Source: Oscillospiraceae bacterium (GTDB taxonomy: Bacteria > Bacillota > Clostridia > Oscillospirales > Oscillospiraceae). Taken from it: DNA of 44,383 nucleotides. Each line of letters opens with the position of its first letter. Positions within the stretch are counted from its first letter, which is position 1. This document shows positions 579-41,222 of this stretch, piece after piece. The translations under genes were made by a program, and so were the position numbers. The stretch is taken from the NCBI GenBank assembly GCA_017538965.1, contig JAFYHU010000048.1, forward strand, positions 1 through 44,383, in the 5' to 3' direction. The notes beneath the pieces were generated by a model. That model saw only the letters and a list, made by a program, of their open reading frames with translations, was not told where the DNA came from and searched no databases.

Positions 579-2048
579 ATGTTAAAAGAATACAAAGGTG
601 CAAAAGATGAGGACAATGACAAGCTGAGAGCCGAGATCAAGGCCCTGCGCGAGCGGCTGATCGGGCAGCAGCAGCTGGTCCGGGAAAAGAAACTGCCCAT
701 CATTGTGCTGATCGAAGGCTGGGCGGCCGCGGGAAAGGGAAGCCTGATCAACGAGATGATCAGCGAGATTGACCCCCGATTCTATAATGTGGTTTCGCCG
801 GTGGTGCTGCCGGAGAAGGAGGAGCGCTATCCCTTCCTGTATCAGTATGCCAAGGCCATCCCTGAGAACGGCAAGATCATGTTCTATGACTCGGGCTGGA
901 TGGAAGGCACCGTGCGGAAGTATCTGCGCCGGGACATCACACGCGACGAATATAAGAAGAGAATTCGCTCGGTCAACGAGTTTGAGCGGCAGCTGCGCGA
1001 CGGCGGCTATCTGGTGCTGAAGTTCTTCCTGCACATCGACAAGGACGAACAGCATAAGCGTCTGTACGCGCTGAAAGAGAATTTCGAAACCGAGTGGCGC
1101 GTTGCCGACGACGACATGTGGCAGCACCGCGAGTATAAGACCTTCCGGGACAGCTATGACGAGTTCATGGATCAGACCGGGAAGATCGTCCCCTGGCATG
1201 TGCTGGACGGGCAGAAAAAGCGCACGGCGACGCGCGACGCGCTGAAGCTGCTGGTGGAATCGATCGACGAGGTGCTGGAAAAGGGCAAATATGTCGGCAA
1301 GCCCTTCAAGGAGAGCTTCCCGCTGAAGAAGATGGAGAAGCTGAGCGAGGTGGACCTGTCGCCCTGCATCGACGACGAGGAATACCGCAAGGAGCTGAAA
1401 AAGCTGCAGAAGCGACTGGGCGAGCTGCACAACACGATCTACCGCAAGAAGATCCCGGTCATCCTCTGCTACGAGGGTTGGGACGCGGCCGGCAAGGGCG
1501 GCAACATCCGCAGGATTTCGAAGCCGCTGGATCCGCGCGGCTTCGACGTGATGCCTATCGCATCGCCCGAACCGCATGAGCTGAACCGGCAGTATCTGTG
1601 GCGCTTCTGGACGAGGCTGCCGCGCAGCGGGCATGTCTGCATCTTTGACCGCACCTGGTACGGACGCGTCATGGTCGAGCGGCTGGAAGGCTTCTGCAGC
1701 GAGGACGACTGGAAGCGCGCCTACAACGAGATCAATGAGTTCGAGCGGCAGCTGACCGACTGGGGCGCCGTGGTGCTGAAATTCTGGATTCACATCGACC
1801 AGGATACGCAGCTCGCGCGTTTTACCGACCGGCAGAACACGCCCGAAAAGCAGTGGAAGCTGACCGAAGAGGACTGGCGCAACCGCGAGAAATGGCCGGA
1901 GTATGAGATGGCGATCGACGAGATGCTGCAGAAGACCAGCACGGAGAACGCGCCGTGGTACATCATCGAGTCGAACGACAAGAAATATGCAAGAATTCGG
2001 ACGCTGAAGATCCTGATCAAAGCGCTGGAAAAGAGAATTGAAGAATAA
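579..2048 (+). CDS. pap: Tandem-domain polyphosphate kinase 2 / polyphosphate:AMP phosphotransferase
   Basis: The 489-residue protein holds two complete PPK2 domains, the architecture of class II PPK2 (PAP), which phosphorylates AMP to ADP with polyphosphate. Domain 1 has a Walker A at residues 47-55 (GWAAAGKGS) and a lid/Walker B region DSGWMEGTVRKY. Domain 2 has EGWDAAGKGG at 299-308 and FDRTWYGRVMVERL. In characterised PAPs the second domain is catalytic; the first here also keeps its lysine, although its lid motif is less canonical. A good ribosome site (GGGAGG) precedes the ATG. PPK1 follows directly, so polymer synthesis and polymer-driven AMP recycling are probably co-transcribed. Length matches the family. 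Confidence 0.93.
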   Translation: MLKEYKGAKDEDNDKLRAEIKALRERLIGQQQLVREKKLPIIVLIEGWAAAGKGSLINEMISEIDPRFYNVVSPVVLPEKEERYPFLYQYAKAIPENGKIMFYDSGWMEGTVRKYLRRDITRDEYKKRIRSVNEFERQLRDGGYLVLKFFLHIDKDEQHKRLYALKENFETEWRVADDDMWQHREYKTFRDSYDEFMDQTGKIVPWHVLDGQKKRTATRDALKLLVESIDEVLEKGKYVGKPFKESFPLKKMEKLSEVDLSPCIDDEEYRKELKKLQKRLGELHNTIYRKKIPVILCYEGWDAAGKGGNIRRISKPLDPRGFDVMPIASPEPHELNRQYLWRFWTRLPRSGHVCIFDRTWYGRVMVERLEGFCSEDDWKRAYNEINEFERQLTDWGAVVLKFWIHIDQDTQLARFTDRQNTPEKQWKLTEEDWRNREKWPEYEMAIDEMLQKTSTENAPWYIIESNDKKYARIRTLKILIKALEKRIEE

Positions 2049-2067
2049 AGTTCAAAGTTCAAAGTTT
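2047..2067 (+). repeat. Heptad repeat array, type B, starting in the PPK2 stop codon
   Basis: AAAGTTC, AAAGTTC and AAAGTTT follow in exact 7-base period, starting at the second base of the TAA stop, then AAAGACGATGG. The same layout occurs after PPK1 at 4213. Confidence 0.8.
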
Positions 2068-2099
2068 AAAGACGATGGATTGGGCGGTTGTGAACAGGT

Positions 2100-4214
2100 A
2101 TGGATAAACAGAAGAAATCGGACAGTATATATATTAATCGCGAAATCAGCTGGCTGAGCTTTAACGAGCGGGTTCTGCTGGAGGCGGCGGACGCGTCGGT
2201 GCCGCTGCTGGAGCGGCTAAAGTTCCTGATGATCTATCAGTCGAACCTTGAGGAATTCTACCGCGTGCGCATCGGCATTCTGACGCATCGGGCGTTGCTT
2301 GAGCCCGACAAGCGGGATCCCCTGTCGGGAATGCTGCCGGACGAGATCATCAACGAAGTGCTGCGCATCACGCGCGAGCAGCAGAGCCTCGCCGAGAGCG
2401 TGTGGAAAGCCATCCGCAGCGAGCTGAAGCGCAGTGGCGTCGAGGTGCTGAACTTCAACAAGATCAACAAGGTCGACGAGCTGATGAGCAAGAAGCTGTT
2501 CGGCGATCTGCGGAATCTGCTGTTTCCGAAGATCATCGAAGCGAATCAGCCATTCCCCTTCCTGTGGGGAGAGGAGAGCTATGTCATCGCCTTCCTGAGC
2601 CGCGGGAACACGCAGCAGATGGTGGTGATTCCGATGCACCGGGTGCCGGCGTATCTGAGCTTTGAGATCGACGGCTGCCAGAAGATCGTCCTGACGGATC
2701 AGCTGGTCCGGCGTTTCCTGCCGCTGCTGCTGAAGAAGGAAAAGATTCTGGAGTCCGCGGTAGTGAAGGTCACGCGGAACGCCGACGTGTTCCTATCGCA
2801 GATCGCAGACAAGGAAGATCTGCGGACGAAAACCTCGAACATGCTGACGAAGCGCAAGCGCGAGGCGCCGGTCCGGGCTATGATCTACGGCAAGCTCAGC
2901 GACGCCTCCCGCGCGACGCTCATCAAGAAGCTCCGGGTGCCCGAGCGCTGCGTCTTCGCGGCGACGGTGCCCTTCGACCTGTCCTTCCGCAGCGCGGTGG
3001 GCAGCCACGAGCATTTCCGCTATGACGAGCGGAAGCCCGCGCGTGAGATCGGACTGAAGAAGGGCGAATACTTCCGCTATATCGACCGGCACGACCTGCT
3101 GATGAGCTATCCCTTCCAGAGCATGATGCCCTTCGTGGACCTGATCTATGAGGCGGCGGACGATCCGGAAGTGCTGTCAATCAAGATTACGCTCTACCGC
3201 ATGTCGGCCAGCAGCAAAATCGCGGCGGCGCTCGCGTACGCGGCGGACAAGGGAAAGGACGTGCTGTGCCTGCTGGAACTGCGCGCGCGCTTTGACGAGC
3301 AGAACAACATCGACTATTCTGAGATGCTGGAGGACGCCGGCTGCCGGGTCATCTACGGGCTGCCGAACCACAAGGTCCACTCGAAGCTCTGCCTGATCAC
3401 CCGCCAGCACGACGGGAATCTCCGGTATATCACGCAGGTCGGCACGGGCAACTATAACGAGATCACCGGCGAACAGTACACCGACCTGTCGCTGATCACG
3501 GCGAATCCGGACGCGGCCCGGGACGCGGAGGCGACCTTCCGGGCGCTCTGCGACGGGGAGCTGCCGCCGGAGGCCCAGACCCTGTGGATCGCGCCACTGA
3601 GCTTCAAGAGCCGGGTGATGGACTATCTCGACCGCGAGATCGCCAAAGGCGCGAACGGCCGGGTGCGCATGAAGATCAACGCCATGAACAACCCCGAGGT
3701 CATGGAGAAGCTGATCGAATGCTCGCAGGCCGGAGTGAAGGTCGAACTGTTCATCCGCGGCATCTGCTGCCTGCGGCCGGGCATCCCGGGCATGACAGAC
3801 AACATCACGGTCAAGAGCGTGGTCGGGCGCTGGCTTGAGCACTCGCGCATCTACTGCTTCGGCGAGGGCGAGGACGAGAGAATGTTCATCGGCTCGGGCG
3901 ACCTGCTGAACCGGAACCTGGAGCGTCGCGTCGAGGCCTTTATCGAAATCACGACCGAGGACACCCGCGAGCAGATCCACGAGATTCTCCGGGCGATTCG
4001 GGAAGACAAAGAAAAATCGCGCGTGATGCAGCCGGACGGCAGCTATCTGCGCGAACAGGGCGGCGAGGGAACCTCGTCGCAGGAGGCACTCTACCAGTAC
4101 TTCAGCAAGAGGAAGGTCTCGCTGGAAGAACCCGCGCAGGAAGCGGCGAAGGCGCCGGCCGAGACAAAACCGGTTGAAGGAGTCTGGGAAAAGTTTTTGA
4201 AATTCTTTAATTAA
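2100..4214 (+). CDS. ppk1: Polyphosphate kinase 1
   Basis: This 704-residue enzyme reversibly polymerises the gamma-phosphate of ATP into polyphosphate. The N-terminal family signature NREISWLSFNERVL is at residues 13-26. The two phospholipase-D-like active-site histidines are visible: H427 in NHKVHSKL (the phosphorylated histidine by homology to E. coli H435) and H581 in LEHSRIYCF. Length is typical (690-720). The start has only a weak ribosome site, consistent with coupling to the PPK2 gene 51 bases upstream. The last 35 residues are a charged, Ala/Glu/Lys-rich tail that is likely disordered. It sits between PPK2 and a ROK kinase. Confidence 0.96.
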   Translation: MDKQKKSDSIYINREISWLSFNERVLLEAADASVPLLERLKFLMIYQSNLEEFYRVRIGILTHRALLEPDKRDPLSGMLPDEIINEVLRITREQQSLAESVWKAIRSELKRSGVEVLNFNKINKVDELMSKKLFGDLRNLLFPKIIEANQPFPFLWGEESYVIAFLSRGNTQQMVVIPMHRVPAYLSFEIDGCQKIVLTDQLVRRFLPLLLKKEKILESAVVKVTRNADVFLSQIADKEDLRTKTSNMLTKRKREAPVRAMIYGKLSDASRATLIKKLRVPERCVFAATVPFDLSFRSAVGSHEHFRYDERKPAREIGLKKGEYFRYIDRHDLLMSYPFQSMMPFVDLIYEAADDPEVLSIKITLYRMSASSKIAAALAYAADKGKDVLCLLELRARFDEQNNIDYSEMLEDAGCRVIYGLPNHKVHSKLCLITRQHDGNLRYITQVGTGNYNEITGEQYTDLSLITANPDAARDAEATFRALCDGELPPEAQTLWIAPLSFKSRVMDYLDREIAKGANGRVRMKINAMNNPEVMEKLIECSQAGVKVELFIRGICCLRPGIPGMTDNITVKSVVGRWLEHSRIYCFGEGEDERMFIGSGDLLNRNLERRVEAFIEITTEDTREQIHEILRAIREDKEKSRVMQPDGSYLREQGGEGTSSQEALYQYFSKRKVSLEEPAQEAAKAPAETKPVEGVWEKFLKFFN

Positions 4215-16353: not shown

Positions 16354-16539
16354 TCAGGCCTGACTCCGATATTTATTGGAGATTCTCTCCAGCGCGTATC
16401 TCACGGCGTCGATGGTATGGTTGTTCCTGTCCGGATACCCGCTGATCCATTCATCCGCCTTGTTCTTCTCAAACTCGTAGTTCACGAACTCCTCGTAAGC
16501 GTGCGGCGTTCTCCTCTTATCAATTTTCACTGTTGAAAG
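16354..16539 (-). pseudogene. Phage terminase large subunit, C-terminal remnant
   Basis: The minus strand encodes about 60 residues ending YPDRNNHTIDAVRYALERI plus SNKYRSQA and a stop. The 'PDRxNHxIDAxRYA' motif is the C-terminal end of the nuclease domain of PBSX-type terminase large subunits. Nothing upstream continues the protein; the frame runs into unrelated sequence at about 16540. It is a fragment of a lost prophage. Confidence 0.75.
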
Positions 16540-16570
16540 CCCTGGTGTTCTTCCGGGTCTTGTCCGGGTC

Positions 16571-16705
16571 AATAACATCCGTAAGTTTCACTTCTCTCGT
16601 AACCCGATGATTGTTGAGTTGCTGAATGAGTATGACCTTGTGAAGGAGTTCGGTGAGGACGTTGACAGAATTTTCAGAGATATGGCGGAAGCGGGTCTTG
16701 TGTGA
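16571..16705 (+). pseudogene. C-terminal remnant of an AlbA_2-type ATP-binding regulator
   Basis: In frame to the TGA at 16703 the plus strand reads NNIRKFHFSRNPMIVELL and then NEYDLVKEFGEDVDRIFRDM, ending AEAGLV. The 'RNP.I...L.....VKEFG.GVDRI' pattern is that of the histidine-kinase-like ATPase segment of AlbA_2/divergent-AAA transcriptional regulators. There is no start, and the 5' part is replaced by terminase-derived sequence on the other strand. A broken gene fragment; moderate certainty. Confidence 0.55.
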
Positions 16706-16791
16706 CTGTCCCCAGTGCAATCCAAGCATGATGAGTAGGAATCATAGGGTGACATTATCACTTGTTAACAACACATGCTTTTTTCATATAT

Positions 16792-16819
16792 TGACGCAAA
16801 TCGTGCCCTATGTTACACT
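16792..16819 (+). promoter_or_regulatory. Promoter of the TIR/binding-protein gene
   Basis: TTGACG (16792-16797), 16-base spacer, TACACT (16814-16819), with TG one base before the -10 (extended -10). It lies 48 bases before the ATG and downstream of the phage debris, so the gene appears to have its own promoter. Confidence 0.6.
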
Positions 16820-16866
16820 GCCGCTTGACAGATTATGACTCGCTGACAGTAAAAAGAGGACGAATC

Positions 16867-18432
16867 ATGGCTGATATCTTTATTTCCTACCGTCGTGACG
16901 GCGGTGACATGGCCGCAATGCATATCTACCAGGCACTGAAGGAACGGGGGTATGACCTGTTCTATGATGTGGAGGTCCTGCGCTCCGGGAAATTCAACGA
17001 GGCACTGCTGAAACAGATTCAGAGCTGCAAGGACTTTATTATTGTTCTTTCTCCTCATGCGTTGGATCGATGTGAAGATAAAAACGACTGGGTGCGTCAG
17101 GAGATTGCCGAGGCAATCAAAGAGAAGAAAAACATCATTCCCGTCATGATGAACGGGTTTCAGTTTCCGGAGAATCTCCCGGAAGATATCAATGAGCTTC
17201 GATTCCATGCAGGCTTGACATCCAGCACGGAATATTTCCAGGAGAGCATCAATCGGCTGTGCAATAGATTTCTGACGGTAAAACCCCGAAAAAAAGGGAA
17301 ATGGATTGTGCCGGCAATTGTCGGGGCAATCCTGTGTGCTTTGGTCATTGGGATTCTTGTAAAGCCGGGTACAAAGCCTTCTCGGAAGGAATCCGATTCT
17401 TCCGCACAGGGCTCGACGATTTACGTTCTGGGCCCGACGCCGGACCATGGCTGGACGGCTCAGGCCGGCGCTTTTGCCTCGGTCAAGTGCGACGAGATCA
17501 ACAAGGAAGGCACCTACAAGGCCGTCTACATTCCCGCCTCTTCCGGTGAAGAGCAGGTCGACCAGTGCAACACCATCATCGCAAACGGTGACGCAGCGGT
17601 CGTCGTCATGATGGCGCTGGACGATTCTGCCAAGGCCGGTCAGGAAGCCCTGCATGCGGAAGAGATCCCATTCATCTCCTTTGACCGTATCATCGAGACC
17701 ACCGAAGAATATGCCGCACTGAACTACTCCGGCAACAACCGGCAGTGCGGTGCCGGCATCGCCTACTGGCTGCAGAAGAACGGCATGGAGCCGGGCGACA
17801 CGGTCGTTGTGCTTTACGGTGACAACGGAATCGCCTGCTCGCGCCGTCAGGAAGGCTTTGAGCAGTTTCTCCGCGGCGAGCTGAAATATGAGGACGAGCT
17901 CAAGGGCGAGTTCGAGACCACCGAAGTCTGGAAGCAGGACGCTTTGGACGACATCTTTAACGGCTACACCGTCGTCTGCAACTGGTCTTCGGACGGCGCC
18001 TACAGCTATGTCGAGCAGAAGTTCGATGAGATCGTCGCGACCGCGAAGGCCAACGCCGGCGAGCTCTTCATCTACTCCATGGACGATGAGATGATCTTCG
18101 GCGTCCTCAATTATCTGGAAGCGGGCGCTTCCGCCGAGACGCTGGCCGATCTGGAAAAGCTCGAGGTCTATATCTCCGCGATCGGCGGCATGCAGGAGCT
18201 GTATGACATCATGGCCGGCACCGACGGGCAGAGCGCGTTGGCGGACAAGTACTTTGACGACATGATGTCCGTGTCCTTCAACCCAAAGATGATGCAGACC
18301 GCCATTGAGCTCGGCGTCAAGTTGGCCGACGGCGACTGGGATTATGAGGTCGGCTCCGGCGAGTATGCGCCGGTGTTCATCGTCGACAAGACCAACGCCG
18401 CCGAGATTGAAGGCTTCCTGGGTCACGCCTGA
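16867..18432 (+). CDS. Transmembrane receptor-like fusion: cytoplasmic TIR domain, one helix, extracellular sugar-binding-protein domain
   Basis: Start ATG 16867 with AGAGGA 6 bases upstream gives 521 residues. Residues 1-136 are a bacterial TIR domain: ADIFISYRRDGGD at the start, YDLFYDVEVL, FIIVLSPHAL, and DWVRQEIAEAI carrying E79, the position of the catalytic glutamate of NAD-cleaving TIR domains. A basic stretch KPRKKGK precedes one helix (146-165), predicting TIR inside. Residues 183-521 form a type-1 periplasmic sugar-binding fold (Peripla_BP_4), with TPDHGWTAQAGAF, SFDRIIE, GDTVVVLYGDNG and SRRQEGFEQFL. No permease or ATPase is adjacent. Inference: a sensor coupling an outside ligand to TIR signalling or NAD depletion. 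Sampled base composition is lower in the TIR half. Confidence 0.85.
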   Translation: MADIFISYRRDGGDMAAMHIYQALKERGYDLFYDVEVLRSGKFNEALLKQIQSCKDFIIVLSPHALDRCEDKNDWVRQEIAEAIKEKKNIIPVMMNGFQFPENLPEDINELRFHAGLTSSTEYFQESINRLCNRFLTVKPRKKGKWIVPAIVGAILCALVIGILVKPGTKPSRKESDSSAQGSTIYVLGPTPDHGWTAQAGAFASVKCDEINKEGTYKAVYIPASSGEEQVDQCNTIIANGDAAVVVMMALDDSAKAGQEALHAEEIPFISFDRIIETTEEYAALNYSGNNRQCGAGIAYWLQKNGMEPGDTVVVLYGDNGIACSRRQEGFEQFLRGELKYEDELKGEFETTEVWKQDALDDIFNGYTVVCNWSSDGAYSYVEQKFDEIVATAKANAGELFIYSMDDEMIFGVLNYLEAGASAETLADLEKLEVYISAIGGMQELYDIMAGTDGQSALADKYFDDMMSVSFNPKMMQTAIELGVKLADGDWDYEVGSGEYAPVFIVDKTNAAEIEGFLGHA

Positions 18433-18467
18433 TTCTTCATTTTGAGCAATGACAGAGACTGACAGCG

Positions 18468-18552
18468 GCGGGGAATGCGGAGCGATCTGGGGATCGCTCC
18501 CTACGGGCGTGGAGTTTTTCACGCTTTCCGCGCGTCGTTATGCTCCCTACGG
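18468..18552 (+). repeat. Dispersed hairpin repeat R1 (copy 2, long form)
   Basis: Arms GGAGCGATC (18479-18487) and GATCGCTCC (18492-18500), then CTACGGG. A second part with GCGCGTCGTTATGCTCCC and CTACGG follows and recurs at 31450-31522. It lies 36 bases after the stop of the TIR gene. Confidence 0.8.
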
Positions 18553-18751
18553 ATGTTGAGATAAGGATAGAGAGGATTGGAACGATGATTCAAACCCCAT
18601 GGCGTAAGCCGGGGGTTTTTGGCGCAGAGGGTTCGGGATCAGGGAGCGGTTTCGAAATCAAAACGACCACAAAAGATGAGGAGAAAGCCGATTTCCTTTT
18701 GGCGGCGGCGCAGAGAAGAGAGACGGAGGATAGCCGCGGAAGCGGGAGGAA

Positions 18752-18782
18752 AGTTGTCAACAGAACCGTCCCCCTGACAACT
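18752..18782 (+). repeat. Hairpin around AGAACCGTCCCC, next to a short heptad tract
   Basis: Arms AGTTGTCA (18752-18759) and TGACAACT (18775-18782) enclose a loop with AGAACCGTCCCC; the same word occurs near 29656. A short type-A tract (GGAGAGTGGAGAGAAGAGG, 18785-18804) follows. The rest of 18553-18894 holds no supported gene. Confidence 0.5.
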
Positions 18783-18807
18783 CGGGGAGAGTGGAGAGAA
18801 GAGGGCC

Positions 18808-18835
18808 TTGACAATTCTGAAGAACAGAGCATAAT
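18808..18835 (+). promoter_or_regulatory. Promoter for the Lin0512 gene
   Basis: TTGACA (18808-18813), 16-base spacer, CATAAT (18830-18835), 59 bases before the ATG. The heptad tract abuts its upstream side. Confidence 0.65.
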
Positions 18836-18894
18836 GCAGTTGAAAAGAAGTCTTGGAGACAATCGGAGAAACAGGATAAAGGAGAGGAGAAAAC

Positions 18895-19254
18895 ATGGCA
18901 TTCAAAAGACTGTTGATTGAAATCGGGCAGGGAGTGGATATGCACGGCGGCGATCAGAACAACGCCGTCCGCAAGGCCGTACAGGACGCCGTCCACCACT
19001 GCTGCATGGCCGGCATCTCGGAAATCTTCGAGATTCAGGACAGGAAGACGCAGGCGAAAGTCCACGCGGACATCTATGCGCCGCATCCCGAACGGGTGGA
19101 TCCCGCCGTCGTGACCGACTATCTGAGCTGGTGGGCCGTGGATGCCGAAGTGCACCCGGGCGGGGCCAACCCGCGGGGCATCGCCTTTGACGGCGACGCG
19201 GAGACCGAAATCACCGTCGCGCTTGTGGTCCTGACCGTATACGTCGACGTCTGA
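18895..19254 (+). CDS. Lin0512-family protein
   Basis: A 119-residue protein matching the Lin0512 family: KRLLIEIGQGVDMHGGDQNN, then AVRKAVQDAVHH, and a C-terminal half PHPERVDPAVV with GEAEITVALVVL-like strands (here DAETEITVALVVLTVYVDV). The biochemical function of the family is not established; the fold is a compact ring-forming domain. Ribosome site GGAGAGGAG lies 6 bases ahead of the ATG. It is 34 bases before the ROK-family gene, so it is probably part of the sugar locus, where it may have a helper or regulatory role. Confidence 0.85.
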   Translation: MAFKRLLIEIGQGVDMHGGDQNNAVRKAVQDAVHHCCMAGISEIFEIQDRKTQAKVHADIYAPHPERVDPAVVTDYLSWWAVDAEVHPGGANPRGIAFDGDAETEITVALVVLTVYVDV

Positions 19255-19288
19255 AGCGCTGTTCACTGACAGCGGAGGAGGGATTGGC

Positions 19289-20707
19289 ATGCAGGTTTGC
19301 GGGATTTCCTTTGATTATCATGAGAAGCCGGAACTGGATCCCGGGTTCGTCCCCTTCGGGCCCTGGAGAAAGGCCTATCTGCAGGAGGCGGACCGCCCGA
19401 TCTCCATCGGGATAGAGCGCGAGGACGGAAAGCTTTCCGTGTTTCACACCTCACTGCGGGGAGAAGCTTTCCGGGAGGCCAATTTCCGCTTTCTGGAGCG
19501 GACGGTCAAGCTGCTGCTCTGGTGCGTGGGCGGGTTCCGCGTCCTGCTCTCCGGCTGCGGCGAGCTGACGGAGGAGCTCAGGCGGGCGTACGGAAAGGAC
19601 GGCGCGCGCTTTTTCGACGCCGATTTCATGGAGACCGTCTACGAGAAGCCCTTTGCAATCGTCGACTGCGAGGAGAGCAGCTTCCCCGCTGCAAGGGAGG
19701 AAGCGATCCGGCTCGGCGGTCATCTGGACGGCTGCCGCATCGGCTTTGACGCGGGCGGCTCGGACCGCAAGGTCTCCGCCGTCATCGACGGGAAGAGCGT
19801 TTACTCGGAAGAGGTCGTCTGGTTCCCGAAGCTCTCGGAGGACCCGGACTATCAGTATCAGGGGATCGTGGAGGCCTTCCGGACGGCGGCGTCGAAGCTG
19901 CCGCGGGTGGATGCGATCGGCGTGAGCTCCGCGGGCGTATTCGTCAACAACCGGACAATGGTTTCCTCGCTGTTCATCAAGGTGCCGAAGGAGCGCCGCG
20001 AGGAAGTCAAGAGCGTGTACGAGCGGGCGGCGCGGGAGATCGGCGACGTGCCGATCGCCGTGGCAAACGACGGCGACGTGACCGCGCTGGCCGGCGCCAT
20101 GAGCCTGGACACGGGCAGGGTGCTGGGCATCGCCATGGGCACGAGCGAGGCGGCCGGATACGTGAACGCGGACCGGAGAATCCTCGGATGGATCAACGAG
20201 CTGGCCTTTGCCCCGGTCGACCTGCAGGAGGATGCGCCGCAGGACGAGTGGTCCGGCGACTTTGGCGTGGGCTGCAAATACCTTTCCCAGGACGCGGTGA
20301 TCCGCCTGGCTGCGCGCGCCGGGATCGATCTGGAGGATACGCTCAGCCCGGCGGAAAAGCTGAAGGAAGTACAGAGGCTCGCGGAGAGCGGGCATGAGGG
20401 CGCGCGGGAGGTGTTCCGCAGCATCGGCTGCTATCTGGCGCACACGCTGAGCCTCTATGCGACGGTGTACGACATCGGAACCGTTCTGGTGCTCGGGCGC
20501 GTGTCGGCGGGCATCGGCGGCGATCTGCTGATGGCGGAATGCCGGCGGGTGCTCGAGGCGGAATACCCGGAGCTGGCGGCGACAATCCGCGTTATGCTGC
20601 CGGATGAAAAGGTGCGCCGCGTGGGACAGAGCATCGCGGCGGCGAGCCTGGCAGCGGCGGAGCATCGCAGCGGCGGAGCCGCTGCAGAGTTGAGAGTGGA
20701 GAGTTGA
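19289..20707 (+). CDS. ROK-family protein with an extra N-terminal domain
   Basis: A 472-residue protein. The last 320 residues have the ROK/actin-like ATPase fold: IGFDAGGSDRKVSAVI (phosphate 1), GVSSAGVFVNN, VANDGDVTALAGAM (catalytic Asp), GIAMGTSEAAGYV and VLVLGRVSAGIGGDLL. The usual CxCGxxGCxE zinc motif of ROK kinases is not visible. The first 150 residues are an additional domain (SFDYHEKPELDPGF, LLLWCVGGFRVLLSG) that I do not recognise. It may be a sugar kinase or a sensor. Ribosome site GGAGGAGGG is 6 bases before the ATG. The C-terminal Arg-Val-Glu-Ser is encoded by a heptad array. Confidence 0.75.
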   Translation: MQVCGISFDYHEKPELDPGFVPFGPWRKAYLQEADRPISIGIEREDGKLSVFHTSLRGEAFREANFRFLERTVKLLLWCVGGFRVLLSGCGELTEELRRAYGKDGARFFDADFMETVYEKPFAIVDCEESSFPAAREEAIRLGGHLDGCRIGFDAGGSDRKVSAVIDGKSVYSEEVVWFPKLSEDPDYQYQGIVEAFRTAASKLPRVDAIGVSSAGVFVNNRTMVSSLFIKVPKERREEVKSVYERAAREIGDVPIAVANDGDVTALAGAMSLDTGRVLGIAMGTSEAAGYVNADRRILGWINELAFAPVDLQEDAPQDEWSGDFGVGCKYLSQDAVIRLAARAGIDLEDTLSPAEKLKEVQRLAESGHEGAREVFRSIGCYLAHTLSLYATVYDIGTVLVLGRVSAGIGGDLLMAECRRVLEAEYPELAATIRVMLPDEKVRRVGQSIAAASLAAAEHRSGGAAAELRVES

Positions 20708-20830
20708 GAGTTGAGAGACGAGAGTGGAGAGTTGAGAGTTGAGAGACGGGGGAAGGGCGCCTGCGGGCGCGGGGATTGCGGAGCGATCTGGGGATCGCTC
20801 CCTACGACGAGGGGGATCGCTCCCTACGGG
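20690..20830 (+). repeat. Composite repeat: heptad array A plus R1 (copy 3)
   Basis: GAGAGTT/GAGAGTG units run from inside the ROK-family stop to about 20745, then GACGGGGGAAGGGCGCC, CTGCGGGCGCGGGG and the R1 hairpin (arms 20780-20788 and 20793-20801), followed by a second partial R1 end (GGGATCGCTCCCTACGGG). It sits between two genes of the sugar locus. Confidence 0.85.
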
Positions 20831-20854
20831 ATTGCAGGAGAAGAGAGATAAGAG

Positions 20855-21973
20855 ATGAAGTTTTATAATGCGATGGTTTTTACGCCGGGGGGATGGGTGA
20901 AAGGCGGATTTCGCGTTGAGAACGGGCGCTTTGCCGAAATCCTCCCCGGTCTGAACGAGGGGGATGAAAATCTCGGCGGTGCGAAGGTGATCCCCGGTCT
21001 GGTGGACATTCATACACACGGCAATTCCGGCGCAGACTTCTCCGACGGCGACCCGGACGGGCTGAAGACCATGGCGGCCTATTGCGCCCGCAGCGGGATC
21101 ACGGCCTTCGCGCCGACCTCCATGACGCTGCCCTTCGAGAAACTCGCCGCGGCCTTTCAGACCGCGCGGGCGCTGCACGACGATCCTCCCGCGGGCTGCG
21201 CACGGGTGGCGGGCATCCATATGGAGGGCCCCTTCTTCTCGGAAAAGAAAAAGGGCGCGCAGAACGGCGAATATCTGCGCGACCCGGATTATGAGGCCTT
21301 TGAAGAGCTGCAGCGCGGCTGCGGAGGCCTGATCCGCATCGTGGACCTCGCGCCGGAGCTTCCGGGCGCGGCGGAATTCGCGGCGAAGGCCTCCGGGATC
21401 TGCCGGGTCTCCGTCGCCCATACCGACGCCGATTACGAGCAGGCCGCCGCGGTGTTCGACGCGGGCGCGTCGCATCTGACGCATCTGTTCAACGCGATGC
21501 CGCCCATCCACCACCGCAAACCCGGCGTGATCGGCGCGGCAAGCGAGCGGGAGAACGTTGCCGCAGAGCTGATCTGCGACGGAATCCACGTGCACCCCTC
21601 GGCCGTGCGGATGGCCTTCCGGCTGTTCCCGGGGCGCATCTGCCTGATCTCCGATTCGCTGCGCTGCGGCGGCATGCCGGACGGCGAGTATGAACTGGGC
21701 GGGCAGCAGGTCTTTCTCAAAGACGGCGTTGCGCGTCTTGCAGACGGCACGATCGCGGGCGCGTCCTCGAACCTCTTTCAGGACATGCGCAACGCGATCC
21801 GCTTCGGAATTCCGGAGGAAGAGGCCATCCGGGCCGCGACGATTCTGCCGGCACGGGAGATCGGAGCCGGGGAGGAAATCGGGTCCGTCGAAGCGGGAAA
21901 ATACGCCGATTTCGTCGTCTGCGGCGAGGACCTCAGCCTGCGTTCGGTGTGGCTGGGCGGCCAAAGGATCTGA
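20855..21973 (+). CDS. nagA: N-acetylglucosamine-6-phosphate deacetylase
   Basis: A 372-residue amidohydrolase that converts GlcNAc-6-phosphate to glucosamine-6-phosphate and acetate in the cytosol. Family motifs in order: VIPGLVDIHTHGNSGADFSD (metal-binding HxH region, about residues 46-65), GIHMEGPFFSEKKKGAQ (metal ligand Glu), SVAHTDADYEQ, THLFNAMPPIHHRKPG and LISDSLRCGG. Length is typical. It links the transporter downstream to amino-sugar breakdown. The ribosome site is weak (GGAGAAGAGAG) and the upstream gap is filled by repeats. Confidence 0.95.
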   Translation: MKFYNAMVFTPGGWVKGGFRVENGRFAEILPGLNEGDENLGGAKVIPGLVDIHTHGNSGADFSDGDPDGLKTMAAYCARSGITAFAPTSMTLPFEKLAAAFQTARALHDDPPAGCARVAGIHMEGPFFSEKKKGAQNGEYLRDPDYEAFEELQRGCGGLIRIVDLAPELPGAAEFAAKASGICRVSVAHTDADYEQAAAVFDAGASHLTHLFNAMPPIHHRKPGVIGAASERENVAAELICDGIHVHPSAVRMAFRLFPGRICLISDSLRCGGMPDGEYELGGQQVFLKDGVARLADGTIAGASSNLFQDMRNAIRFGIPEEEAIRAATILPAREIGAGEEIGSVEAGKYADFVVCGEDLSLRSVWLGGQRI

Positions 21974-22040
21974 ACAGAATACACAAAAAACGGGCTCGGG
22001 TTTTGTAAAAAACACCGGGCCCGAAATCGTCCGCTCCCGT

Positions 22041-22069
22041 TTGACAAAACTTGGACAGAGGACTATAAT
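22041..22069 (+). promoter_or_regulatory. Perfect consensus sigma-A promoter of the ABC importer
   Basis: TTGACA (22041-22046), 17-base spacer and TATAAT (22064-22069) match the consensus at all twelve positions, 61 bases before the binding-protein ATG. It predicts high basal expression of the importer. Confidence 0.85.
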
Positions 22070-22130
22070 ACAGACATGATTGTCGGGGAAAAACCGGCAA
22101 AACAGCAAAAACGGAAAAGGAGAAAACAGT

Positions 22131-23393
22131 ATGAAGAAAAAGCTATTCGCACTCTTCCTGATCGTCGCGCTCATGCTCTGCATGGTTCCCGCGGCGTTCG
22201 CAGCGGACGATGAGATCACGCTGGATGTCATCATCTGCCAGTACGGCCCGAACACCAACGACTGGTTCCTGGGCACGGGCATGGATGGTTCCAACTTCGT
22301 CGACAAGTTCGAAGCGGCCAACCCGGGCATCAAGCTGAATCTGGATGTGGTGTCCTGGAACGATGTCTACACAGAAGTAGACACCCGCGTTGCAAATGAC
22401 AACGCGCCCGACATCCTGAACATCGACGTCTTCGCGAACTATGCGACGGAAGGTCTTCTGATGCCGGTGAAGGACTACTGCCCGGACGATCTGTTCGAGG
22501 ACTTCTTCCCGAACTTTATCGAACAGTCCAATATTGACGGCACCATTTGGGCGGTTCCCGACCTCGCCTCCATGCGCGCCCTTTGGTATAATGCAGATAT
22601 TCTTGAGGAAGTCGGCGTTGAGCCTCCCACCACATGGAGTGAACTTGAAGATGCCTGCCAGGCTATTCTCGACTACTATGACGGTGAGATCTATCCCTGG
22701 GGCATTGACATGACCACCGATGAAGGCCAGGCTGCCTTTGCCTACTATACCTTCAACAACGGCGGCGGATTTATTGATGAGAACGGCGACTGGGCTGTCA
22801 ACTCCGAAGAGAACGCCGAAGCGATTGACTTCGCCCTTGGGCTTGTGGAAGACGGCTTTACCAACCCGAATCCGGCCACCCAGACCCGCTATGACCTGCA
22901 GGATATGCTTGCAGCCGGCAAGCTCGCGATGATGATCGGACCGAACAATATGCCGACTTATGTATCTGACAAAGGCGGCGAGATCAATCTGGGTTATGTG
23001 AGCATCCCCTGTGCTGACGGCAAGACGGCGTCCGGTGTCGGCGTCATGGACCGCGTGATGGCCTTCAAGGATGATTCCGCACCCGATCAGGAAGCCCGCA
23101 ACGCGGCGATCGCTGCGTTCCTCAAGTTCTTCTATGATCCTGAGAACTATGTCGGCTGGGTCAGCATGGAAGGCTTCCTGCCCGCTGTGAACTCCTCTGT
23201 TGCCGCTCTGATCGAGTCTGACGCTTCGTTTGAAGGATGGCTCAATATGCTGGATACCTTCCACACCTATCCGAGCTCCAAGGCGGAGTGGGATCAGTGC
23301 AAGCAGGGTGTCATCGCTGCCGAGCAGAATGCCCTGACAGGCGCGGATATCCAGGCTGAACTGGATGCGCTGCAGGCTGAACTTGTGGGATAA
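22131..23393 (+). CDS. Extracellular solute-binding protein, family 1 (sugar ABC importer)
   Basis: Start ATG 22131 gives a clean signal peptide (KKKLFALFLIVALMLCMVPA, cleavage after AFA) and follows AAAAGGAG by about 10 bases. The 420-residue protein has the MalE/UgpB-like fold: NPGIKLNLDVVSWNDVY, DNAPDILNIDVFANYA, ALWYNADILEEVGVEPPTTW, and LAMMIGPNNMP. It lacks the usual lipobox cysteine, so it may be released or held by the permeases; this is unusual for a Gram-positive binding protein. It captures an oligosaccharide outside the cell and delivers it to the two permeases downstream. NagA upstream points to a GlcNAc-containing ligand (inference). Confidence 0.92.
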   Translation: MKKKLFALFLIVALMLCMVPAAFAADDEITLDVIICQYGPNTNDWFLGTGMDGSNFVDKFEAANPGIKLNLDVVSWNDVYTEVDTRVANDNAPDILNIDVFANYATEGLLMPVKDYCPDDLFEDFFPNFIEQSNIDGTIWAVPDLASMRALWYNADILEEVGVEPPTTWSELEDACQAILDYYDGEIYPWGIDMTTDEGQAAFAYYTFNNGGGFIDENGDWAVNSEENAEAIDFALGLVEDGFTNPNPATQTRYDLQDMLAAGKLAMMIGPNNMPTYVSDKGGEINLGYVSIPCADGKTASGVGVMDRVMAFKDDSAPDQEARNAAIAAFLKFFYDPENYVGWVSMEGFLPAVNSSVAALIESDASFEGWLNMLDTFHTYPSSKAEWDQCKQGVIAAEQNALTGADIQAELDALQAELVG

Positions 23394-23422
23394 GGAGCAG
23401 CCCACAAACGCATGAATTCCCG

Positions 23423-23449
23423 GGGCCGGCTGATCAGGTCAGCCGGCCC
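23423..23449 (+). promoter_or_regulatory. Intercistronic stem-loop between binding protein and permeases
   Basis: Arms GGGCCGGCTGA (23423-23433) and TCAGCCGGCCC (23439-23449), loop TCAGG, no U-tract. Such hairpins after a binding-protein gene commonly stabilise its mRNA or partly attenuate the permease genes. Confidence 0.7.
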
Positions 23450-23473
23450 TGTCTGTATAAGGAGGGAACCGCA

Positions 23474-24361
23474 ATGAACACCGGGCTGAACCGAACCAGG
23501 TGGGAGCCCTATGTATGGCTGCTTCCCAGCCTTTTGCTGATCTCGATCTTTGTCGTTTTCCCGATCCTGATCGTCTTCAAGCTCTCCTTCAGCGAGATTT
23601 CCAAGGCCGGTGTGATCGGCGGCTTCGTGGGCTTTGACAACTATGTCGAGGCGGTGCATTTGCCGGCCTTCAAGACCGTGATGCTCAACACCCTCTGGTG
23701 GGTGCTCTCGGTCGTCCTTCTGTCCACGCTGCTCGGCTTCATCATCGCGATGGTGCTGAACCAGAAGTTTCGCGGGAGGAAGATCGCCCGATCCATCCTG
23801 GTCTTCCCCTGGGCGACTTCGCTGGTCATTCAGGCGTCGGTATGGAACTATATCATCAAGTACGAATACGGCAACCTGAACAACGTGCTGCTGAACCTCG
23901 GCATCATCCAGCAGGCGATCAACTGGCGCTCGAGCTATCAGATCGAGTTTGTCTGGGAGTGCTGGGTCGGTATCTTCGTCACGGTTCCCTTTGTCACTTT
24001 CTGTGTGCTCTCGGGGCTGCAGTCGATCGACGACTCGCTCTACGAGGCGGCCATCGTGGACGGGGCCGGCTTCTGGGACAAGCTGCGCCATGTGACGCTG
24101 CCGATGGTGCGCCCCTCGCTCACGGTGAGCACGGTGCTGAACATCATCTATGTCTTCAATTCCTTCCCGATCGTCTATACCATGACCAAGGGCGCCCCGG
24201 CCCACAAGACGGACACGATGATCACCTATCTCTACATGCTGTCCTTCTATGAGCGGAAGAAAGGGCCGGCGACCGCGCTGTCCGTGATCGGCTTCCTGAT
24301 CCTCTGCCTCTGCGCGGGAATCTACATGGTCTCGGTGATGAGAAAGGAGGAGCAGCTGTGA
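23474..24361 (+). CDS. Sugar ABC importer permease 1 (MalF/LacF-like)
   Basis: A 295-residue membrane protein with six predicted helices, starting with WLLPSLLLISIFVVFPILIV and ending VIGFLILCLCAGIYMVSVM. The cytoplasmic EAA loop is present (DSLYEAAIVDGAGFWDKLR with the HVTLPMVRPSL continuation) and would contact the ATPase. It pairs with the permease encoded next, whose GTG start overlaps its TGA by four bases. No ATPase gene is nearby; a shared MsmX-type ATPase encoded elsewhere is the usual solution. Confidence 0.93.
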   Translation: MNTGLNRTRWEPYVWLLPSLLLISIFVVFPILIVFKLSFSEISKAGVIGGFVGFDNYVEAVHLPAFKTVMLNTLWWVLSVVLLSTLLGFIIAMVLNQKFRGRKIARSILVFPWATSLVIQASVWNYIIKYEYGNLNNVLLNLGIIQQAINWRSSYQIEFVWECWVGIFVTVPFVTFCVLSGLQSIDDSLYEAAIVDGAGFWDKLRHVTLPMVRPSLTVSTVLNIIYVFNSFPIVYTMTKGAPAHKTDTMITYLYMLSFYERKKGPATALSVIGFLILCLCAGIYMVSVMRKEEQL

Positions 24362-25950
24362 GATTTCCGGAAGTAAAGCAGCAGAATCGGAAAATGCTGA
24401 TTCTGTTTCTTGCGGGGCTGATCCTCACGCTCATCCTGATGAGTCTGCCGCTCTACAGCTTTGATGTCGGCGTCTTTACCAAGAAATCGGCGAATACCTT
24501 TGTCGGCGATGAGAAGTATCAGACCGTGAGGGAAGAGGTCGAGGGAGTGGCGGAGGAATATCGCGCGCAGGGCTTCGATGTGGAGATTCAGGAGAACGTG
24601 CTGGAGCGCGTCAACTCCAAGGGCAAGACAACCTCACTCATTACCTTTACTGTCAATCAGCGCTACAGCAAAAATCTCTTTTCCTTTCTGGGAAAGGGCT
24701 TTCCGTCCTCGACCGTGCTGGCGGCGATCCTGGGTCTCATGGCTCTGGCGCTGATCCTGGAGGCGGCAGGCCTCGCGGGAACGGACGATCTGCTGCCGCG
24801 CTATCTGGATAAAAGAACCGCGCGTCTGCGCAGCGCTGCCGTCGCGGCCCTGATCCTGGCTCTGCTGCTCGTGCCGGTTTTCATCCTGATGAACAACGTC
24901 ATCTTCTTTCGGAAACTTTCGCTGTACAGCGCGGGACTGATCACGGAAGGGAAGGAAGCGTTCTATGCAAAGCTGGACAATTTCTTCTTTGACGGACAGA
25001 TGGGCGAGAATGCCGAGGAAGTCTTCAGCGGACTGAAAATCAACACATCGCCGATGCTGTGGCTGATGGCGGCGACGCTGTTCATAGCGCTGGCCGCGGC
25101 GATCTCCCTGCGGCATGGGGAGATCAAAAGCAGTCTGCTTCGCGGCGCGCTGTATGTGTTTGTGGTCATCGTGTGCCTCATCACGCTGTATCCCTATTAC
25201 GTCATGACGATTACGGCGTTTCGCTCGAATGCCGAGACGCTCGACATGTACTTCCTGCATATGGCCCCGACGAAGTGGCTGTGGAGCAACCTGACGGACA
25301 TCGTCCAGCGCGGCGTACCGCGCTATCTGCTGAACTCCCTGTTCGTCGCGGGTGGCGCGACGGCGCTGGCCATGCTCTGCGGGATTCCGGCGGCCTATGC
25401 CATGGCGCGGATGAACTTCGTGGGGAAGAAGGCCTTTCTCGGCTTCGTCATCATGAGCCAGATGTTCTCTCCGGTGGTGCTGCTGATCGGCATTTCGCAG
25501 CTGATGAACACGCTGCACCTCAACAACACGCTCTGGGGCCTCATGCTCATCAACGCGGCCTTCAACCAGGCCTTTGCGATCTGGTTGCTGCGGGGGACCT
25601 TTGTGTCCATCTCCTCGGAGATGGAGCAGGCCGCCCTGATCGACGGCTGCGGAACCGTCGGGGCGCTGATGAAGGTGCTGCTTCCGATGGCGGCCCCGGG
25701 CATCGTGACGGCGCTGATCTTCGTGTTCATCAACGCCTGGAACGAATATACGATCGCGACAATCCTGATCTCCACGGCACAGAACCGGCCGATCACCGTG
25801 GGCATTACGCAGTTCAGCTCCTTCAACATGATCGAGTGGCAGTACATGTTTGCCGCGTCACTGCTGGCGACGATCCCGGTCGTGATCCTCTTCATGAGCA
25901 TCGAGAAACACCTCACCGCAGGCCTGACCTCGGGAGGCGTAAAAGGATAA
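24358..25950 (+). CDS. Sugar ABC importer permease 2 (MalG-like) with long N-terminal extension
   Basis: GTG start with AAAGGAGG 8 bases upstream. At 530 residues it is nearly twice the usual MalG length. The final 270 residues are canonical (ALYVFVVIVCLITLYPYYVM, AYAMARMNF, EAA loop EMEQAALIDGCGTVGALMK, and GLTSGGVKG end). The first 260 residues add a helix, an extracytoplasmic segment (about 45-110, charged), two helices (about 118-180) and a second outside segment. MalF, not MalG, normally carries such an insert. The last 17 codons are duplicated after the stop. Confidence 0.9.
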   Translation: MRFPEVKQQNRKMLILFLAGLILTLILMSLPLYSFDVGVFTKKSANTFVGDEKYQTVREEVEGVAEEYRAQGFDVEIQENVLERVNSKGKTTSLITFTVNQRYSKNLFSFLGKGFPSSTVLAAILGLMALALILEAAGLAGTDDLLPRYLDKRTARLRSAAVAALILALLLVPVFILMNNVIFFRKLSLYSAGLITEGKEAFYAKLDNFFFDGQMGENAEEVFSGLKINTSPMLWLMAATLFIALAAAISLRHGEIKSSLLRGALYVFVVIVCLITLYPYYVMTITAFRSNAETLDMYFLHMAPTKWLWSNLTDIVQRGVPRYLLNSLFVAGGATALAMLCGIPAAYAMARMNFVGKKAFLGFVIMSQMFSPVVLLIGISQLMNTLHLNNTLWGLMLINAAFNQAFAIWLLRGTFVSISSEMEQAALIDGCGTVGALMKVLLPMAAPGIVTALIFVFINAWNEYTIATILISTAQNRPITVGITQFSSFNMIEWQYMFAASLLATIPVVILFMSIEKHLTAGLTSGGVKG

Positions 25951-40169: not shown

Positions 40170-41222
40170 TTACTCTGCGTCGCGACGGGTATAGAACGTG
40201 CTCCGACCGACGCCGTGTTTGATCAGGAACCCATCGTCAACAAGCTTTTTGATGGAACTTTCCACCGAGGTTTTGCTCAGACCGGGGCACATGGCCTGGA
40301 TCTCCGCCTTAGTAAACTTTCCGATCCGTCCCATGACTGCACGGCGCACGGTTTCGATCGCGGGCAGTTTCTCTCCGACCAGGTCCACCCGTGCCTCAAA
40401 GTCCCGATATGCCGCAAGGATCGTGGAAAGCAGATACTTGATAAAGGGTGTGGGATCGTCCTGTTCCTCATACCATCCCGTCTGGCTCAATTCCAGGGCG
40501 TCGTAGTATGCGTCCTTGGTACGAGCGATCTTGCTTTCAAGGGAAATATAGCGCCCGATCGGGTATCCGCAGCGATACAGAAGCAGGGTGGTCAGCAGCC
40601 GGCTCATGCGGCCGTTTCCGTCGTTGAAGGGATGGATGCAGAGGAAATCGTGGATGAACACGGGAATTAGGATCAGCGGATCGATCTCCTGTGTATCGGC
40701 TACCCGGTTGAAGCTCTCGCAGATCGCCTCAACGGCGGTCGGGGTCTCATATGGGGCAAGCGGAGTAAACAGCACAAAGCTATGACCAGCCGCATCTGTC
40801 GCGCTGATATAGTTCTGCGTATTCTTGAAGGAGCCGCCAATCCCGCGCTCGGAATACTTGAACAGATCCCGGTGAAGCTGAAGTATATATCCCGGACGCA
40901 GAGGAATATACTCGTAATTCTCATGAATCGTGTTCAGCACGTCTCTGTATCCGGCGATCTCACGCTCGTCGCGGTTCCGGGGCGTGGTTTTTTCTGCGCA
41001 GAGCTGCTTGAGCCGTGTATTGGTCGTGCGGATTCCCTCAATCTCATTGGAAGCTTCCGTGCTCTGGATCTTTGCAATCTCTACCAACCGTTCCAGATCC
41101 TCCGGCTGGCGCCTGAGAAAAAGTTCCTGCCGCCCTTTATACTCGTGGATCTGCGCGACATATCCCAGGACCTCATTGTCCCAGGTCCTGGCTTTTAAAT
41201 TGGAATAATCAAATGTACGCAT
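40170..41222 (-). CDS. Fic-family protein (probable AMP transferase) with C-terminal winged helix
   Basis: A 350-residue protein. Residues 54-63 contain the N-terminal inhibitory helix motif SxxxEG (S58, E62, G63), placing it in class II Fic proteins. The Fic core has the complete active-site motif HPFNDGNGRMSR at 197-208 with H197 as base, so AMPylation of a hydroxyl target is expected when inhibition is relieved. The last 65 residues (IGKFTKAEIQAMCPGLSKTS and VESSIKKLVDDGFLIKHGVG) form a winged helix, likely DNA-binding. A large palindrome over its promoter fits autoregulation. No antitoxin gene is adjacent, consistent with self-inhibition. Confidence 0.92.
   Translation of the reverse strand: MRTFDYSNLKARTWDNEVLGYVAQIHEYKGRQELFLRRQPEDLERLVEIAKIQSTEASNEIEGIRTTNTRLKQLCAEKTTPRNRDEREIAGYRDVLNTIHENYEYIPLRPGYILQLHRDLFKYSERGIGGSFKNTQNYISATDAAGHSFVLFTPLAPYETPTAVEAICESFNRVADTQEIDPLILIPVFIHDFLCIHPFNDGNGRMSRLLTTLLLYRCGYPIGRYISLESKIARTKDAYYDALELSQTGWYEEQDDPTPFIKYLLSTILAAYRDFEARVDLVGEKLPAIETVRRAVMGRIGKFTKAEIQAMCPGLSKTSVESSIKKLVDDGFLIKHGVGRSTFYTRRDAE

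Follow-up and report, generated by a model that had tools for sequence, protein, structure and literature searches.

A TIR domain joined through a single membrane helix to a sugar-binding-protein domain: a possible surface receptor in an Oscillospiraceae bacterium

We analyzed a 44,383-nucleotide contig of an Oscillospiraceae bacterium (JAFYHU010000048.1, positions 1 to 44,383; hereafter the window, meaning the whole stretch of DNA that was analyzed) and characterized one of its genes. The gene encodes a one-piece membrane protein consisting of a TIR domain, a single helix and then a sugar-binding-protein fold. We consider the chances about evenly balanced that this protein acts as a ligand-gated, one-component surface TIR receptor of a gut bacterium. 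Judging from its kin, the host would be a monoderm relative of the Oscillospiraceae. The reading frame is open throughout (521 amino acids and a stop), and its parts are as follows:

16867..18432, plus strand: whole gene, 521 codons and a stop (open frame, translation)
16867..17274, plus strand: TIR domain, residues 1-136, predicted to lie on the cytoplasmic side by the charge rule (Pfam, structure model)
17089..17103, plus strand: W75-V-R-Q-E79 (alignment with SARM1)
17281..17301, plus strand: KPRKKGK positive patch 5′ of the helix (sequence)
17302..17361, plus strand: membrane helix, residues 146-165 (hydropathy; helix in the model)
17362..17406, plus strand: linker, containing the joint with the captured domain at 17399 (start of homology at the DNA level with the free copy in G453)
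17407..18429, plus strand: predicted outer sugar-binding-protein domain, residues 181-521 (Pfam, structure model)

A preliminary description, made from the sequence alone, had placed a TIR domain at residues 1-136, and the TIR_2 model of Pfam indeed matches residues 4-116 (E 1.8e-16; 61.1 bits against a curated cut-off of 28). The complete Peripla_BP_4-type fold that it proposed was also recovered, since the Pfam match at residues 185-489 (E 8e-17, above the cut-off) covers profile positions 1-256 of 258 and the predicted structure of the outer domain is that of an entire two-lobed sugar-binding protein. Both matches are far above chance level, and TIR models and Peripla_BP_4 are the only Pfam families detected in the protein. 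Its single hydrophobic segment (residues 147-165, Kyte-Doolittle 2.96) coincides with the helix described at 146-165 and is directly preceded by K139-P-R-K-K-G-K145. By the charge rule, the TIR domain would reside inside the cell and the binding domain outside.

The two domains were modeled as separate halves, their mutual placement lying outside the models, and structural comparisons were taken from VIA-align rows. In the TIR half, the predicted local distance difference test (pLDDT) exceeds 90 for most blocks through residue 140, with values of 75-82 at about residues 31-50; a helix at 150-164 has a pLDDT of about 60. Structure prediction, suggested earlier as a check, returned a TIR fold that superposes on the SARM1 TIR. 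W75 and E79 occur where they had been described, and E79, the sole invariant residue across 34 aligned TIR rows, aligns with the catalytic glutamate of SARM1 (E642). On this alignment, the active-site residues, including the catalytic glutamate, are retained, and the domain may cleave nicotinamide adenine dinucleotide (NAD) or produce an ADP-ribose-type signal. SARM1-type TIRs are active upon self-association, and bacterial TIR enzymes are known mainly as intracellular alarm enzymes set off by infection (PMC8635717). The same genome encodes a second SARM1-like TIR on contig C26 (L002:1261-1929; 67% identity over 142 residues), with a hydrophobic stretch ahead of the TIR and not behind it.

The outer domain points to an origin from an importer's binding protein. 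Its free relatives share 57-87% identity in 28 rows (27 distinct) that are labelled mostly Bacillota and Actinomycetota, with one spirochaete and one Bacteroidota. Among 28 loci from a peptide-pattern scan, a signal-peptide-like N-terminus was seen by eye in 27, the remaining one (L028) being truncated at a contig end. A two-domain ATP-binding cassette (ABC) ATPase protein, called RbsA-like from gene layout alone, lies directly 3′ of the binding protein in 26, and L019 and L024 meet a contig end. A search of the genus (102 genomes, its own included) recovered a close copy (71-87% identity) in 10 other genomes, where the complete open frames of 372-415 amino acids leave no room for a TIR domain; three further genomes hold a copy at 30-34% identity. 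DNA homology to the nearest free copy, that of G453, spans 17399 to 18426 at 84%, and at the joint SASA followed by EGSTIYVLG in G453 corresponds to SSA followed by QGSTIYVLG in the window. By this comparison, the TIR domain and helix have been substituted for the signal peptide to about its cleavage site. The signal peptide and free secreted form of Peripla_BP_4 proteins are absent from the fusion, replaced by TIR and helix. No cognate importer ATPase adjoins the gene, and the best of six two-domain ATPases in its own genome reaches 37%. Against the G453 ATPase, nine rows from nearer relatives (L003 and L126 being one contig) show 79.5-84.3% identity and three distant rows 60-71%. Since the six reach at most 37% against 60-84.3% in these other rows, the cognate importer seems absent, an absence made uncertain by an assembly that is 93.9% complete. 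The outer domain therefore seems to be orphaned from its importer ATPase.

The inner half of the protein is part of a wider pattern. TIR_2 matches occur in at least 66 of the 102 genomes of the genus. About 90 places among the listed TIR_2 matches, together with TIR loci of other searches, yielded 108 distinct TIR frames, some of them cut at the ends of the retrieved stretch and 11 from outside the genus. Among the matches listed, 63 of the 108 (one from outside the genus) have one helix after the TIR domain and at least 60 residues beyond it. In the outer parts, LRR_4 is matched in 36 cases, Sel1 in five, RCC1 in four, PepSY in two and Peripla_BP_4 in one, that of the window. Lysine and arginine are commoner ahead of the helix than behind it in 58 of 64 such rows (one a duplicate), with two reversed and four equal. 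One protein of the same genus (L071) is 50% identical in its TIR through residue 163, helix included, and has a different outer part; another of the same family (L233, in G1095:C1) combines a TIR of 51% identity and a helix with yet another. By eye, the outer part of the former (L071:1435-3111; about 370 residues, no Pfam match) gives the impression of an alpha/alpha toroid, and that of the latter is large and ends in a PDZ-like region, Pfam showing the TIR only. Examples with leucine-rich repeats (LRR), in which the arrangement of Toll-like receptors recurs in reverse order, are L190:630-1283, L159:2053-2955 and L152:790-1350; we found no description of TIR-helix-LRR proteins in the literature searched. 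These comparisons suggest a stable TIR-helix module whose outer parts are exchanged, the window presenting the binding-protein case. The many TIR-helix-LRR proteins in the genus make a receptor likelier than it would be for an isolated oddity. More tentatively, gut Oscillospiraceae could possess a modular family of surface receptors in which a TIR-helix chassis bears exchangeable outer domains (LRR mostly, RCC1, Sel1 and importer-derived).

Within the window, the fusion gene is isolated as a unit, with a promoter-like site on its 5′ side and a terminator-like site on its 3′ side (patterns only), and a phage gene fragment lies upstream:

16791..16819, plus strand: promoter-like site, TTGACG, 17 nt, TACACT, with TG ahead of the second hexamer (consensus scan only)
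18495..18519, plus strand: terminator-like hairpin 3′ of the gene (pattern scan only)
about 16372..16539, minus strand: fragment of a phage terminase large subunit (PHROG phrog_18557, 2.3e-20)

The consensus scan returned five promoter-like sites in 16500-18900 on both strands against 1.2 expected, and the terminator-like pattern four against 2.3 expected. The terminase fragment is the one piece tested of the phage debris that the preliminary description had reported, and for that piece the report holds. Upstream are macA-like (profile match), macB-like (by eye) and rhomboid protease genes, then the terminase fragment; downstream are a Lin0512 family gene, a ROK-like frame scoring under the Pfam cut-off, nagA, and genes for an SBP_bac_1 protein and two permeases. 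The last three occupy 22080-25950, behind the ROK-like and nagA genes, and contradict the earlier statement that no importer genes lie alongside, though they belong to another transporter class. Taken together, 18895-25950 (Lin0512, ROK-like, nagA, SBP_bac_1 importer) looks like an operon for amino-sugar uptake and use. Elsewhere in the window are adjoining PPK2 and PPK1 polyphosphate kinase genes (579-4214) and a Fic/DOC protein (40170-41222, minus strand; PADLOC SoFic, 1.4e-38).

On the reading that we favor, a sugar-binding protein formerly serving an ABC importer had its signal peptide replaced by a TIR-helix module. The outer domain would then bind a small, monosaccharide-like ligand, and its bound state would govern how the TIRs are spaced inside the cell. 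Lobe closure or ligand-driven dimerization could bring the inner SARM1-like TIRs together, and their assembly may trigger cleavage of NAD or production of an ADP-ribose-type signal in the service of phage defence, stress or surface sensing. The one-piece receptor put forward in the preliminary description draws support from the layout, the SARM1-like fold and the catalytic glutamate, and loses support from the lack of a second genome with this architecture.

That lack is one of several observations that weigh against a receptor. No search recovered TIR, helix and Peripla_BP_4 together in another genome; the proposed check on conservation of the joint across genomes fails for want of material, and there is consequently no conservation argument for the fusion. 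The peptide-pattern scan of genome contigs gave 28 loci with TIR in none of the frames (L028, at its contig end, being uninformative), and the same patterns in IMG/VR gave no fusion. Neither did phages or plasmids, the latter yielding TIR matches only, in three Paraburkholderia records. Whole-genome searches from genus to phylum scale (E limits 1e-3, 1e-10, 1e-10, 1e-15, 1e-15 and 1e-15) likewise gave none, in overlapping draws that scored up to three candidates per genome for order, class and phylum and up to four for the family. The query was the window protein itself, and a remote TIR and binding-domain fusion of unrelated sequence could escape it. In search of an empty insertion site, 16 relative regions contained rhomboid (6), Lin0512 (6), free binding protein (3) or TIR (1), never together, with matches below 35% identity dropped. 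No known TIR effector was recognized in the 28 window frames scanned, none of which matches SIR2, SLOG, Macro or a related Pfam family; an effector could be encoded farther away.

The recent history of the outer domain also counts against a receptor, as constraint looks relaxed. Polarised changes number 39 non-synonymous and 20 synonymous in the fused domain and 4 and 22 in the G453 copy, its nearest free copy (Fisher p 1.6e-5); polarisation used G453 and the five nearest rows, two of which (L003, L126) are the same contig, and dropped 76 differing sites as unpolarised. The ratio of 39:20 does not fall clearly under the neutral expectation (one-sided p 0.035-0.21, depending on transition bias), and the probability of zero stops under drift is 0.035-0.16. 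Seven changes (Y23F, W112R, T142I, V143A, A195S, T230I and V268I, numbered within the domain, with protein positions 180 higher) fall where the remaining rows are invariant or at least 90% constant; such changes number 0 to 2 in the six nearest rows and reach 21 in more distant ones (L018 21, L029 15). The residues that we presume to contact sugar in the pocket are retained. The protein tree unites the window with L121 as sisters (98/95), with an end branch of 0.13 against 0.024 for the sister, unlike the DNA tree, where L121 joins others in a group that excludes the window (support 82). Relative-rate counts ranged from 31:5 to 35:4 against the five nearest outgroup rows; against eleven other rows the skew was weaker, down to 15:10. 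Speaking against a rate excess, L006 and L007 each gave 20:10 (p 0.099); nine further rows gave 15:5 to 24:9, with p above 0.1 in four. One of 12 control pairs was strongly skewed (L006/L015, 13:45). As a whole, the rate and site pattern fits a domain that no longer serves transport and has either been adapted to sensing or is drifting.

Drift would lead to a different view of the gene, namely a recent, decaying chimera that arose as an in-frame accident and is open only through its youth. We regard this as unlikely, if the most serious rival: a fusion in one genome only, relaxed constraint, counts compatible with neutral drift and an adjoining terminase fragment suggestive of a rearranged spot speak for it. 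However, the 1,023 bases have undergone at least 59 polarised changes and acquired no stop or frameshift, the joint falls exactly at the mature domain, the presumed pocket anchors and TIR active-site residues are retained, and the gene has promoter-like and terminator-like sites of its own.

An artificial join in the assembly, linking a TIR gene to another species' binding-protein gene, is improbable. Third-position guanine-plus-cytosine content does step from 0.57 ahead of the joint to 0.82 past it, and the assembly is in 91 contigs, but frame and domain border are intact at the joint, and it is the outer domain that lies within the 0.70-0.91 of three neighboring genes and the TIR that lies below. 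Moreover, a plain join would be expected to deliver an ordinary free copy, which this domain, with its long end branch and excess amino-acid change, is not. Still more improbable is a tethered binding protein that goes on supplying an importer, the TIR then being a passenger or an uptake regulator. The complete binding fold would suit it, as would the six two-domain ATPases broadly of this type that the genome encodes at other sites, but none of the six is orthologous, the nearby importer of another class has its own binding protein, and the strong constraint of free transporting copies is gone.

If the TIR is controlled by the outer binding domain, the protein would be a bacterial surface receptor with NAD loss or an NAD-derived signal as output. 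Its outer domain is of a well-studied sugar-binding type, which makes ligand screening straightforward. As the member of the proposed family whose ligand class can be guessed, the protein makes testable whether ligand-gated, Toll-like TIR receptors exist at the bacterial surface, and it opens the TIR-helix-LRR proteins of the genus to study. Even a young accident would show a route of origin, in which a signal peptide is swapped for a TIR-helix module.

The preliminary description knew of no described system with this order, and we found none: a literature search, with subscription papers mostly outside its scope, gave no description of a TIR and solute-binding-protein fusion, PMC7075850 and PMC13142454 included. 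Diverse domain architectures are typical of prokaryotic TIR groups (PMC7075850), and the fusion is so far an unreported version of this diversity, known from one genome. It shares the TIR fold and catalytic glutamate with the animal NAD hydrolase SARM1/TIR-1, in which intracellular ARM and SAM domains exert control, whereas the fusion would be regulated by a helix and outer domain. With RbsB-like binding proteins (Peripla_BP_4) the whole outer fold is common; the fusion differs in having no signal peptide, no cognate importer found, and an attached TIR and helix. Among Thoeris proteins (ThsB/ThcB), its TIR matches NCBIfam ThcB4 (1e-12) and PADLOC ThsB (1.1e-9); we rejected membership, as ThcB4 scores 47.6 bits against a cut-off of 220 and no ThsA-type gene was recognized in the 28 frames. 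BT1754-type hybrid two-component sensors of Bacteroides use the same fold as the outer sensor of a one-piece receptor (2x7x), a precedent for such use (PMC3404733). Their output is a histidine kinase and DNA-binding part, whereas that of the fusion is a TIR, histidine kinase and response-regulator outputs being absent by Pfam. The TIR-helix-LRR and other TIR-helix-ectodomain proteins of the genus have the same arrangement (a leading TIR, a single helix with a positive patch ahead of it, and a terminal outer part) with other outer domains, and their alignable TIRs are about 20-28% identical. Finally, Toll-like receptors likewise combine an outer recognition part, one helix and an inner TIR; the analogy drawn earlier holds for this layout, but in the fusion the order is reversed, the outer domain is of another kind without LRR, and the TIR is of the enzymatic type.
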